This document shows positions 5,912 through 45,613 of a stretch of 64,000 nucleotides of DNA, piece by piece. The notes beneath the pieces were generated by a model. It was not told where the DNA came from, searched no databases, and worked only from the letters and a program-made list of their open reading frames with translations. Position 1 is the first letter of the stretch; every line of letters starts with the position of its first letter. A program made the translations under genes and the position numbers. The stretch comes from Microvenator marinus (lineage in GTDB: Bacteria; Myxococcota_A; Bradymonadia; Bradymonadales; Bradymonadaceae), in the NCBI RefSeq assembly GCF_007993755.1, contig NZ_CP042467.1, forward strand, positions 4,488,001 through 4,552,000, written 5' to 3'.

Positions 5912-6982
5912 TTATCGGCCAAAGAGCGATGGTAGAGTTTCGGAATATGGGGCGCTAGCGACGCCAACCTCGGTGATGATGGCAGTCACGAGCTCGGCCG
6001 GCGTGACGTCGAACGCAGGATGTGCTGCCTTCATTCCCTCAGGGGCAATAGTTTTGCCCTGAATCTCAGTGACCTCTTTAGAGGAACGCTCTTCAATCGG
6101 GATGCCCGCGCCGTCCTGTGTGTTCAGGTCGATCGTTGAAAGCGGCGCTGCCACAAAGAACGGGATCTTGTGATACTTGCAAAGTACAGCCAGAGAGTAC
6201 GTTCCAATCTTGTTGGCCACATCTCCATTGGCGGCGACTCGATCAGTACCCACAATCACACAATCAACAAGGCCTTGTTGCATGTAGAACCCCGCCATAT
6301 TGTCCGTGATCAGGGTGGCCGGAATCTCGTCTTGGATGCACTCCCAGGCGGTAAGTCTTGCGCCTTGCAGGTAGGGCCGAGTCTCATCCACCCAGACATG
6401 CTGCAACTTCCCGACAGCCTTTGCGGCACGTATAATGCCAAGCGCCGTTCCATATCCACCGGTGGCCAAACCGCCTGTGTTGCAATGCGTGAGGATCCGA
6501 ACTCCGTCCTTGAGCAGCGCGGCGCCCTGGCGCCCCATCTCTTGGTTGTTGGCACGGTCCTCATCGTTGATGGCGTGGGCTTCGGCTAGAAGTCTTGCGA
6601 CCACGTCTTGGTGGGGCTGCCCCTCGACGGTGCCGAGCGTCGTCCGCATCCGGTCGAGTGCCCAAAAGAGGTTGACCGCCGTGGGCCGTGTCTTGGCGAG
6701 CAGCTCAAAAAGCGCCTCAACCTTTGCCGCCTCATTGAGCAAGGTAGGGTCCTCTCTAAACCCGAGTGCAACGCCATAGGCCGCGGCGATTCCAATCGCA
6801 GGCGCGCCGCGCACTGACATCTCACGAATGGCATCAGCCACCGCGGCCGCGGACTCAAGCTTGAGCCAACGCTCGGCTTGCGGCAGCTCCTTCTGCTCAA
6901 GCAGAGAAAGGTGGCCGTCTAGCTCACCTACCCAGATCAAGGGGCGCACGTTGGAATCAAACACGTTCGGGAATTCACTCAT
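5912..6982 (-). CDS. mtnA: S-methyl-5-thioribose-1-phosphate isomerase
   Basis: 356-residue enzyme of the methionine salvage pathway, isomerising methylthioribose-1-phosphate to methylthioribulose-1-phosphate. Family signatures include RGAPAIGIAAAYG (about 59-70), catalytic Cys167 in THCNTGGLATGGYG and catalytic Asp247 in VGTDRVAANGDVANKIG. These correspond to the Cys/Asp pair known from the Bacillus enzyme. The fold is related to eIF2B, but the catalytic pair supports the isomerase call. It follows gatB by 15 bp and is probably co-transcribed. No other mtn genes are present here. Confidence 0.93.
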   Translation of the reverse strand: MSEFPNVFDSNVRPLIWVGELDGHLSLLEQKELPQAERWLKLESAAAVADAIREMSVRGAPAIGIAAAYGVALGFREDPTLLNEAAKVEALFELLAKTRPTAVNLFWALDRMRTTLGTVEGQPHQDVVARLLAEAHAINDEDRANNQEMGRQGAALLKDGVRILTHCNTGGLATGGYGTALGIIRAAKAVGKLQHVWVDETRPYLQGARLTAWECIQDEIPATLITDNMAGFYMQQGLVDCVIVGTDRVAANGDVANKIGTYSLAVLCKYHKIPFFVAAPLSTIDLNTQDGAGIPIEERSSKEVTEIQGKTIAPEGMKAAHPAFDVTPAELVTAIITEVGVASAPYSETLPSLFGR

Positions 6983-42891: not shown

Positions 42892-42918
42892 TTGACACTT
42901 AACTCCCCATAATACACA
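42892..42918 (+). promoter_or_regulatory. Promoter-like sequence for the structured RNA
   Basis: Perfect TTGACA (42892-42897). The best -10 is TACACA at 42913-42918 (15-nt spacer) or CACACT at 17 nt; both are modest. A start site about 7 nt on falls exactly at the base of the long helix at 42925. Confidence 0.5.
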
Positions 42919-42924
42919 CTGAAA

Positions 42925-43046
42925 GTCCATCGAGGGACGGCCAATCATGCGTTCCCCCCAGGCCGTTAGTCAGGTGCATATTCCATGGCTACGCCAAGTC
43001 CTTCGGTGGACCTAAAAAGAACCTCACAAACGTGAGGTTCTTTTTT
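42925..43046 (+). ncRNA. Candidate structured small RNA of unknown family
   Basis: The 14-nt segment 42925-42938 pairs with 42998-43011 along its full length (12 Watson-Crick pairs plus two G-T wobbles). Inside it, CGGCC (42938-42942) can pair with GGCCG (42961-42965) around an 18-nt C-rich loop. A third weaker stem pairs 42973-42976 with 42992-42995. The RNA is followed at once by a strong terminator. It is preceded by a TTGACA element. I find no SRP-RNA, tmRNA, RNase P, hammerhead or common riboswitch consensus. It could be an sRNA or a cis-acting leader of the gene at 43145. Confidence 0.55.
43013..43046 (+). terminator. Intrinsic terminator of the structured RNA
   Basis: Stem AAGAACCTCAC / GTGAGGTTCTT with a 4-nt loop, followed by a T run. 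It lies about 100 bp upstream of the next start codon. Confidence 0.92.
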
Positions 43047-43144
43047 GTTTCTTGGATCTCGCTTTTCTACGCAATCACTAATCGTTGCAGCCCGGAAAAT
43101 AGTTGGGTAAGGGTACTCGCCGATTTAGATGGAGTTGAATCGAC

Positions 43145-45613
43145 GTGGCTAAGACGTTCTTTGACGGTATTCGCGCAGCTGCTTTAATCGCACTGATTCT
43201 CACGTTCTGGAGCTTCGACGCTGCGTCGGTAGCCCTCGAACAAGCATCAGACGATTCCGGCATGCGATTCGTATTAGTCGCTTTCGGTATCTTGGGTCTG
43301 CCCTTGCTCCTCGGAGGTTCCGTCCTCGGAATTCTCGGTTCGAGCTGGTCCGGATGGTTTCAAGTCGCTCAAGAGAATCGAACTGACGCTGAAGCACTAG
43401 AATTTAGGAAGAAAGTAGCCAGCGCAACGCTTGTTGCACTGCCGATCCAAGCGCTGATCGTGGCGGCTCTGGTGGCAGCCACCCACTTCCTTGTGACCGC
43501 TGCGTTTCAGCGAGTCATGTTCCAAGCCCTGGGGCTTGGCGCCATCGCTGCCGTAGGCGCCGTGGGCGCCGGACTTGTCTGGCCAGCGCTGGTCCATCTG
43601 GTTTTCCACACCCTCGCTCCCTCGTTCAAAAATTCGATTACCACCCGCATGGAATCGAGCTTTGAGACCTCGCGCCTTCAGGCACTGACGGCGTCAACAT
43701 TGGTAGTGTTACCACTGGTGTCTGGTTTGCTCGGTGCGCTCGTCTGGGCAGCTCATACCTTCCTCATCGCGGGCATTGAGTCGAAGTCGTTACAGGCAAC
43801 CGGCCTCCTGGTTGTTGTCTGGGGAGCTGCCGTCCTATGTGGAGCCCTCGTGCTGTGGGCCTGCGCCAAAATTCTCCCCTTGTTTGAAAAGAAGGAAAAA
43901 CCACTCAGACCTGTTTTTGGTTTGATCGCCGTCTTGTCTGCCGCCGCCACGGCGCTAGCCTACTTCTGGGCAAAAGGGCTCAACGTTTGGGGCCACGCCA
44001 CCCTCTTGATGGCATTGGTCGCTGGTCCCGGATTGGTTCTGGTCTTCGTCGCGATGTGGCGCATGGAGATTCGCAGGATTGCATGGGTGTATGGACTTCC
44101 TCTAGCGTTTGTCCTCCTCGTGTTGCCTTCATTTTACCTGGCTGGCGATTGGGCAAGTTCCACCCAGACGCTTCGAGAAGCCACAAATCGTCATGGGGCA
44201 TTAACCTCGGACCTTGCTCGTGTTCTGCAGACGTTCTCGGATGCAGACGGTGACGGGATTCCGGGTCGTTTCGGAGGAGGCGACTGTGATGACACCAACG
44301 CCGAGATCTATCCAGGAGCTCGAGACACCCCAGGCAACGGGATCGATGAAAGCTGCTCCGGGGCCGATTCTGAGCTTCCACAGGGTAATGACCACCCATC
44401 CAGAAAGGCGGTCGCTCGAGCTTTCGAAACAGCGCTGGCCGAGCTTAAACGCGCTGAGGAAAACATTCCCGATCCGCCTAAGAATCTTCTGATTCTCCTC
44501 GTCGATACCTTGAGAGTCGACCACCTTGGATATGCCGGTTACGAGCGTGATACATCGCCGCGCATCGACGAACTTGCTCGCGAGTCGAGCACCTTCCTCT
44601 CCGCCTACGCTACGTCGCCCCACACCCCGAGGAGCATCCCAGCTGTCTTCTACGGAAAATACGCGAGCCGCATGAACTTTCTCGGCGCCCAGTACAATTA
44701 CCCAAGAGTTCACCCTGACAACACGAGCTTTGCCGAAGTGCTCTCGGAATCAGGCCATCAGAATTACGCCGAGACCTCGCATCACTACTTTCAGGAGAAG
44801 CGCGGACTCAACCAGGGCTTTCAAAACTGGAACAACGACGGCTGGCTCGATATCGCCCCCTCAAATGACGATATCGCCGCTCCGAGAATCTGGGCGCGCA
44901 CTGAGCCTCTGATCGAAAAGCTGGCTGAAACGCAGAAGTCCGGGGATGCCGCGCCCTTTACGCTCGTCGTTCATCTTTTCGAGCCCCATGCCCGCTGGAT
45001 TCATCACAAAGAATACGATTTCGGCAAAGAGGGGGATCCTCGAGTCAACGCCTACAACTCGGAGATCGCGTACACCGATGCCTACATCGGCAAAATCATA
45101 GACAAATTTAAGGAGCAAGACCTCTGGGATGAGACTGTTACGGTGCTGGTCTCAGACCACGGCGAGGCTTTCAATGAACACGGGTTCTACTTTCACGGAC
45201 AAACGCTCTACAACGAAGTGATCCGAGTTCCACTCATCGTGAGAGTTCCCGGTTGGCACCACCGCATGATCAAGACGCCAGTGTCTATCCTGGACGTGGG
45301 CCCCACATTGCTCGATCTCCTCGGTGAGGATGCGCCCTCAGATTACGATGGAATGAGCCTCGTTCCGCTCATGCTCGGCCAAGAGGTCGCCGATCGGCCC
45401 ATCTTCTCGGAACTCCTTCCGTACACAAGCTGGAAAGAACACCACAAGGCAGTCATGCTCGGTGATTGGAAGATGATCTCAGTCCTCTCAGCTGGCTCGG
45501 AGGAGCTCTACAATCTGGCCGAAGACCCAGGCGAGAAGAAGAACTTGATCAAGGAGAAGCCGGAAGACGCACAACGCCTTCGCCGTGCTCTCGAAGAGTT
45601 CATGAACCGATGA
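43145..45613 (+). CDS. Membrane sulfatase/alkaline-phosphatase-superfamily enzyme with MopE-type insert
   Basis: 822 residues with a GTG start. Residues 1-345 carry about 8-10 membrane segments. Residues 365-405 are an Asp-rich metal-binding segment of the MopE type (DADGDGIPGRFGGGDCDD, then DTPGNGIDESC). Residues 446-800 are a sulfatase fold: LLILLVDTLRVDHLGYAGY with the metal Asp, the nucleophile region TSPHTPRSIPAVFYG, and VSDHGEAFNEHG. The nucleophile seems to be Thr/Ser rather than the Cys of formylglycine sulfatases, so phospho- or glycerophospho-transfer is as likely as sulfate hydrolysis. The active domain is probably outside the inner membrane. It is coupled (ATGA) to the DUF523 gene. 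Confidence 0.82.
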   Translation: MAKTFFDGIRAAALIALILTFWSFDAASVALEQASDDSGMRFVLVAFGILGLPLLLGGSVLGILGSSWSGWFQVAQENRTDAEALEFRKKVASATLVALPIQALIVAALVAATHFLVTAAFQRVMFQALGLGAIAAVGAVGAGLVWPALVHLVFHTLAPSFKNSITTRMESSFETSRLQALTASTLVVLPLVSGLLGALVWAAHTFLIAGIESKSLQATGLLVVVWGAAVLCGALVLWACAKILPLFEKKEKPLRPVFGLIAVLSAAATALAYFWAKGLNVWGHATLLMALVAGPGLVLVFVAMWRMEIRRIAWVYGLPLAFVLLVLPSFYLAGDWASSTQTLREATNRHGALTSDLARVLQTFSDADGDGIPGRFGGGDCDDTNAEIYPGARDTPGNGIDESCSGADSELPQGNDHPSRKAVARAFETALAELKRAEENIPDPPKNLLILLVDTLRVDHLGYAGYERDTSPRIDELARESSTFLSAYATSPHTPRSIPAVFYGKYASRMNFLGAQYNYPRVHPDNTSFAEVLSESGHQNYAETSHHYFQEKRGLNQGFQNWNNDGWLDIAPSNDDIAAPRIWARTEPLIEKLAETQKSGDAAPFTLVVHLFEPHARWIHHKEYDFGKEGDPRVNAYNSEIAYTDAYIGKIIDKFKEQDLWDETVTVLVSDHGEAFNEHGFYFHGQTLYNEVIRVPLIVRVPGWHHRMIKTPVSILDVGPTLLDLLGEDAPSDYDGMSLVPLMLGQEVADRPIFSELLPYTSWKEHHKAVMLGDWKMISVLSAGSEELYNLAEDPGEKKNLIKEKPEDAQRLRRALEEFMNR

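Follow-up and report, generated by a model that had tools for sequence, protein, structure and literature searches.

The window considered here is the whole stretch of 64,000 nucleotides that was analysed. Positions 42925-43011 of its forward strand encode a compact RNA, preceded by promoter-like elements, followed by an intrinsic terminator, and neighboured downstream by a gene for a sulfatase-like membrane protein. Judged from this layout, the RNA appears to be about 90 nt in size, or about 120-130 nt including its terminator. The features of the locus are as follows:

42892-42897, + strand: -35 element TTGACA, perfect by direct reading
42913-42918, + strand: -10-like element TACACA, the best-scoring -10, weak in the window copy, with a spacer of 15 nt
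42925-42936, + strand: 5' strand of the closing helix P1, partner strand 43000-43011
42937-42942, + strand: 5' strand of P2, ACGGCC, partner strand 42961-42966
42943-42951, + strand: L2 half of the kissing helix, AAU-C-AUGCG with one bulged C, complement of 42975-42982
42953-42960, + strand: unpaired UCCCCCCA, nearly invariant by column conservation in 44 sequences, with C6 at 42954-42959
42961-42966, + strand: 3' strand of P2, GGCCGU, partner of 42937-42942
42967-42974, + strand: 5' strand of P3, assigned from pairing and double changes
42975-42982, + strand: L3 half of the kissing helix, UGCAUAUU, partner of the L2 half
42983-42991, + strand: 3' strand of P3 with bulged A42985, the bulged A being kept in 43 of 44 sequences
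42992-42999, + strand: J3/1, a variable single strand whose length differs among copies
43000-43011, + strand: 3' strand of P1, partner of 42925-42936
43014-43045, + strand: intrinsic terminator hairpin identified by folding, 14 bp (43014-43027/43032-43045) with an AAAC loop, the T's running on beyond it
43145-45613, + strand: sulfatase-like membrane protein gene (Pfam Sulfatase, 2e-42), a neighbour outside the RNA

The RNA is unusually stable for its composition both with its terminator (z = -5.5) and without it (z = -4.2), none of 200 dinucleotide shuffles being equally stable in either case. The original prediction had described a 14-bp closing helix (42925-42938/42998-43011) enclosing at least one strong inner stem with a C-rich loop. 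That closing helix does form in the minimum-energy fold, but A42937 and C42938 belong to P2 in the family, so that its last two pairs are lost and P1 comprises 12 bp. The inner stem is likewise present, as P2 and L2 with its C6, but a second stem, P3, and the kissing helix between L2 and L3 had been missed.

We scanned the window against the 4227 families of Rfam 15 using the curated gathering scores. Only tRNAs were matched and the RNA locus remained without a match; across 15 loci with homologues, the same database yielded two tRNAs and one SRP RNA, and none at the RNA itself, in agreement with the prediction that it belongs to no recognised family. Below gathering, with E allowed up to 10, the window stretch matched mir-361, Phe_leader, ncr1015 and other families; these matches were rejected, as their scores were far too low and they fell mostly on the terminator hairpin. 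In G030, the bacterial small SRP RNA (L056:9335-9427) and the two tRNAs are located about 4.3 kb away from the RNA copy.

When 57 related genomes were searched at the nucleotide level, most members of the window's family gave convincing matches. Alignment A2 and covariance model R1 were built from 19 copies, and R1, at E ≤ 0.01, recovered the RNA from 20 of the 21 family genomes; the weakest of its matches (G017 C248) was later discarded, another, strong match being present in G017. A second covariance model, R2, built from 40 copies, identified 48 copies in 25 of the 57 genomes of the class, bearing out the covariance search of relatives that had been proposed as a check. Forty-four of these copies lie in the window's family, where all 21 genomes examined carried one to six each, and the other four lie one in each of four genomes from a single genus of another family of the same class; five genomes of a second family of the same order had no R2 match. 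Across 377 genomes of the phylum, R2 matched 27 at E ≤ 0.001, namely the same 25 and two with coding-looking matches, with nothing convincing elsewhere in the phylum. The RNA was not found in searches of phages, plasmids and viral contigs.

Weak model matches in G017b, G257 and G266 were dropped by eye before alignments A3 and A4 as GC-rich, coding-looking DNA. Those in G199 and G224 were dropped by eye on the same grounds (G224 holds an ACGG...CCCCCCA..CCGT string), and the remaining weak R1 matches, with E above 0.001, were excluded without one-by-one inspection. A pattern scan of the genome collection gave 33 loci, of which 19 were kept (at least 53 bits with R1) and 14 dropped (seven at 13-18 bits with R1 and seven with no R1 match). 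The window's family includes Lujinxingia vulgaris TMQ2 (NZ_VOSL01000142.1), and Lujinxingiaceae are placed by NCBI in Bradymonadales, which are described as predatory bacteria (PMC11509652). In G002, G008 and G019, a second sub-class of the RNA has a conserved CGGAG closing-helix end (L065, L066, L069, L070, L071).

The copies share a common fold, a three-way junction of P1, P2 and P3 in which L2 and L3 are joined by a kissing helix of 8 bp. Covariation was counted on alignment A4, which holds 44 distinct sequences. Standard pairs occupied 92.6% of its 1399 pair cells, and both sides had changed in 330 cells distributed over 27 of 32 pairs. When the partners were slid against each other, only 36-45% of cells paired and 64-73 were doubly changed. 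No shuffle equalled the alignment in pairing, in covariation score or in the number of cells changed on both sides; the number of doubly changed pairs was equalled by 1 of 500. For the three stems, to which A4 was fitted so that their counts are biased upward, double changes were found in all ten modelled pairs of P1, in 3 of 6 pairs of P2 (98.5% of cells paired) and in 7 of 8 pairs of P3 (99.4% of cells paired). The compensatory changes that the original prediction had named as a check of the closing helix are present at every modelled P1 pair. Two core C-G/G-C pairs of P2 were invariant in 44 of 44 sequences; in G004d, two P2 pairs are altered in a compensating manner.

The kissing helix, which is absent from every model, showed double changes in 7 of 8 pairs; 82% of its cells were paired (65% for the last pair). 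Over 34 distinct pairs of L2 and L3, mean duplex energy was -8.4 kcal/mol for native partners versus -4.6 for swapped ones, and 0 of 20000 permutations gave a value as low, either for the full set or for 14 well-separated L2 types. Native partners ranked first, alone or tied, in no more than 11 of 34 rows (9 of 14 types), in part owing to the similarity of many copies. In copies with wholly different loops, each half still complements its own other half. Within these alignments, every helix, including the kissing helix, is supported by covariation.

P1, P3 and the kissing helix are free to vary in sequence, unlike a small set of constant positions. In A4, each of the six C columns is conserved in 43-44 of 44 sequences, the A that follows in 42 and the U that precedes in 39; the run itself is six C long in 38 sequences, seven in three and five in three. 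The P2 core C, G, C, G and the final U are kept in 44 of 44, and the bulged A of P3 in 43. The unpaired UCCCCCCA lies on the L2 strand, adjoining both the kissing helix and the conserved P2, and C6 is retained in paralogues whose other loops have diverged completely. Sharing of a three-armed, kissing fold and an unpaired C6 across dozens of copies indicates a functional RNA. Our literature searches, whose coverage leaves out most subscription papers, returned no paper joining Bradymonadales with a small RNA and, when broadened, none describing this RNA. The small RNA in Bradymonadales is real and uncatalogued, and its covariance model is usable at once for annotating these genomes.

Conservation of this kind might also arise from a gene for a short leader peptide or a small protein, read from GGAGG and an AUG with the C-run as codons, and in many copies GGAGG does precede an L2 AUG by about 9 nt. 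However, the AUG is absent in G009 and several paralogues, and the changes observed compensate one another in base pairing. Because L2 length shifts of 1-2 nt break the frame and AUGs are missing, we rejected this reading, which we find scarcely credible.

The copies also resemble one another as transcription units. In 29 of 48 copies, the best promoter-like pair within 60 nt upstream reached a score of 9 of 12 or more, compared with 0.9% of random positions, and TTGAC- occurs at the corresponding place in most copies. The promoter-like TTGACA noted originally is where it was said to be, perfect, and recurrent among copies, but its own -10 is weak (TACACA, 15-nt spacer). Many other copies have a better -10, e.g. 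TATAGT or CATATT, and recurrence among copies makes the window promoter convincing despite its weak -10. Divergent paralogues often have low promoter scores (5-8), so their promoters are unproven. A T-tract (6 of 8 T) lies at most 54 nt downstream in 38 of 48 copies versus 8.6% of random positions, and in the window the T's follow the predicted strong terminator hairpin directly. Possession of its own sigma70-type promoter and terminator, as read from these elements, marks the locus as a stand-alone small RNA; with covariation, the recurring promoter and the T-tract, the compact structured RNA first proposed is upheld.

Two further observations concern these units. G003 carries tandem RNA copies 135 nt apart (L022:5949-6039 and 6084-6172), the second with a poor promoter (7 of 12). 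TTCTTG occurs within 80 nt downstream of 25 of 48 copies (e.g. window 43046-43055); after T5 runs generally it was found at 19 of 1301 in the sample, with 6 expected, and is possibly a terminator feature of the lineage.

One suggestion had been that the RNA is a riboswitch-like leader of the sulfatase-like gene. A homologue of this gene lies downstream in 12 of the 41 neighbourhoods compared, two main-type copies (G011 and G014) being unsuitable for this comparison because the contig ends too near to them. No RNA lies beside the sulfatase orthologues of G009, G012 and G019, and the RNA copy of G019 faces a convergent Nudix-like frame (named by eye). Opposite-strand frames lie downstream of G000b, G003c, G004b, G006a, G001a and G009a (simple, uncurated frame calls), and after the second copy in the window's own genome the next gene is on the other strand. 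Constant placement upstream of a co-directional gene, as expected of a cis-leader or riboswitch, was not observed; paralogues occupy unrelated contexts and no neighbouring gene is constant across copies. Convergent genes at several copies, together with the sulfatase link broken in three genomes, argue for a stand-alone RNA and against a sulfatase leader. The sulfatase adjacency is better explained as synteny of the main copy than as general function, possibly with a local role.

The same data bear on a ligand-sensing aptamer, in which P1 and the U-tract would terminate transcription ahead of the downstream gene under ligand control. In the purine riboswitch, a three-way junction also brings the P2 and P3 loops into a kissing contact. 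The likeness is one of architecture only: the RNA studied here has no Rfam match, holds its constant bases in L2, P2 and the P3 bulge and not in the junction, and occurs as stand-alone units. The kissing junction itself, the direct passage of P1 into the T-tract in several copies and the 12 sulfatase neighbourhoods would be in keeping with an aptamer, but J3/1 at the junction is variable, no alternative antiterminator pairing was seen by eye in the window, and at several copies the downstream gene is a different one or is on the opposite strand, in addition to the three broken sulfatase links. We therefore consider an aptamer improbable.

A trans-acting sRNA had been put forward as the other possibility. 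A stand-alone small RNA fits well, with paralogues in unrelated places and several facing a convergent gene; action in trans is the part that we infer. Hfq, whose presence in the genome an Hfq-dependent sRNA would require, was found in 0 of 21 family genomes by a search that was positive for 5 of the 14 genomes used as controls. Among relatives, CsrA occurs in 26 of 29. CsrA decoys hold a GGA motif in a hairpin loop, and none was seen in this RNA.

Next, we considered possible mRNA partners of C6. Unpaired C-rich sRNA loops in S. aureus and Listeria are linked to Shine-Dalgarno pairing, and a similar loop here might serve to regulate many ordinary mRNAs. However, the Shine-Dalgarno sequences here are AAGGAG/GGAGG, which C6 does not match, and GGGGGG was found in the Shine-Dalgarno region of 0 of 645 genes (864 kb sample). 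A general anti-Shine-Dalgarno role was rejected on this last count, and seems very improbable to us. G6 is rare, with 80 occurrences versus 395 expected by a first-order model, but 90 are expected by the highest-order model, so that its avoidance is not special beyond that of G5. There are 10 occurrences of TGGGGGGAA in the whole genome versus 8 for the reversed control; two of the 10 are the antisense of RNA copies, and several of the other 8 are coding. Within the 864-kb sample, TGGGGGGAA accounted for 5 of 13 intergenic G6 runs, one being the antisense of the RNA itself. TGGGGGGA followed by ATG occurs at 19 genomic sites, most of them within reading frames. A regulon defined by UGGGGGGA sites, sought as a pattern across the family, gave many more matches than the reversed control, yet was set aside because ATG versus GTA and Trp-Gly coding bias make that control unfair and the sites in the window's own genome lie mostly in reading frames.

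Two 5' UTRs in the window's genome contain UGGGGGGAA, those of a fused fliO-fliP gene and of an RCC1-repeat gene, and by their sequence both sites are good candidates. In the former (L189:1501-2710; G000:C1:2250479), UGGGGGGAAC starts 28 nt before the ATG and is the exact complement of GUUCCCCCCA in the window RNA. We also examined fliO-fliP as a conserved target and rejected it: a G-run of at least 5 lay near the start in G000, G004 and G003 only, among 18 loci of which some have short or uncertain upstream sequence, the gene having been picked because G000 had the run. Elsewhere, UGGGGGGAAU lies between a MerR-like and a sigma-70-like gene (both named by eye) at L187 (G000:C1:1080060). With G-run searches largely negative, target-side support for C6 pairing is weak.

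Scarcity of G-run targets is one of several observations that would suit a protein-binding RNA, in which C6, the constant P2 core (CGG/CCGU) and the P3 bulged A form one surface recognised by an RNA-binding protein, either dedicated or housekeeping, that the RNA would titrate, scaffold or activate. The constant positions cluster in C6, the next A, the P2 core and the bulged A, in contrast to the variable P1, P3 and kissing helix, and all paralogues carry the same surface. Moreover, a single C6 common to all paralogues fits one shared partner better than many mRNA targets. Against this, no neighbouring gene is constant across copies, and for CsrA, although it is present, no GGA in a hairpin loop was seen. 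A protein-binding RNA is a possibility that we take seriously without favouring it; as the partner of C6 itself, a protein is nearly as likely as mRNA pairing.

The 6C sRNA, an Rfam family, was not among the Rfam matches of the window stretch down to E = 10. The 6C/B11 type has two stem-loops, each with a C-rich loop, and only one C-run was found per copy here. For a mode of action in which a C-rich loop pairs with G-rich mRNA sites near starts, the window's genome offers two candidate 5' UTR sites, with no general enrichment. In Xanthomonas, sX13 is described as Hfq-independent and highly structured, with C-rich loops (4C/5C) acting on G-rich mRNA sites (PMC3771888). The RNA resembles it in being structured, in its C-rich motif and in its proposed lack of Hfq dependence; it differs in that sX13 consists of three successive stem-loops and has three C-rich loops, whereas here L2 and L3 pair, there is one C run and the RNA is multicopy. 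Mycobacterial B11, with two C-rich loops, is reported to repress eccB4, whose 5' UTR has a six-G tract (PMC10470900). It too is a small structured RNA with a C-rich loop, from mycobacteria described as having no identified Hfq/ProQ-type chaperone (PMC10470900), but it has two such loops in place of one C6 strand in a kissing three-way junction, and the lineages are unrelated. LhrC of Listeria, like the RNA studied here, is a multicopy sRNA family, treated in a paper that mentions a C-rich motif and UCCC (PMC4132741); it comes from a different lineage, and its sequence relation was assessed through the Rfam scan. By analogy, the favoured mode of action would be similar to that of sX13 or 6C/B11, with an unrelated fold.

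Comparison of the genomes and copies shows how the transcription unit is laid out, the fold with its kissing helix, a constant C6, the presence of multiple copies in the same genome and the lack of detectable Hfq. On this basis our tentative preference, which we hold at less than even confidence, is for a stand-alone, Hfq-independent trans-acting sRNA with a sigma70-type promoter, whose kissing three-way junction offers C6 as a contact site for G-rich mRNAs. Trans-action via C6 is favoured because sX13 and 6C/B11 are brought to mind by an unpaired C6 that stays constant in a lineage lacking Hfq. The RNA would be transcribed from its own sigma70-type promoter; it folds as a three-way junction whose two hairpin loops kiss through the 8-bp helix. 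This fold keeps the UCCCCCCA strand of L2 unpaired beside the conserved P2, with the C6 strand as the putative working surface. The RNA may then act in trans and independently of Hfq, with C6 pairing to a small number of mRNAs at rare G-rich sites, while the folded scaffold would provide both stability and presentation of C6. With its strongly covarying loop-loop contact, this family-wide RNA offers RNA biologists a model of how a candidate contact site of an sRNA is retained and presented where Hfq is absent, and altering the C6 strand alone would clearly separate pairing with mRNA from binding of a protein.

A bolder proposal, which we regard as doubtful, is that the kissing three-way junction holding a hexacytidine strand defines a new RNA class, whose paralogues would show the same C6 to one partner without Hfq, possibly serving the predation of Bradymonadales, for example through the fliO-fliP export genes of a needle-less type III system. 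If true, this would be a new RNA class with its own architecture in an Hfq-less lineage.
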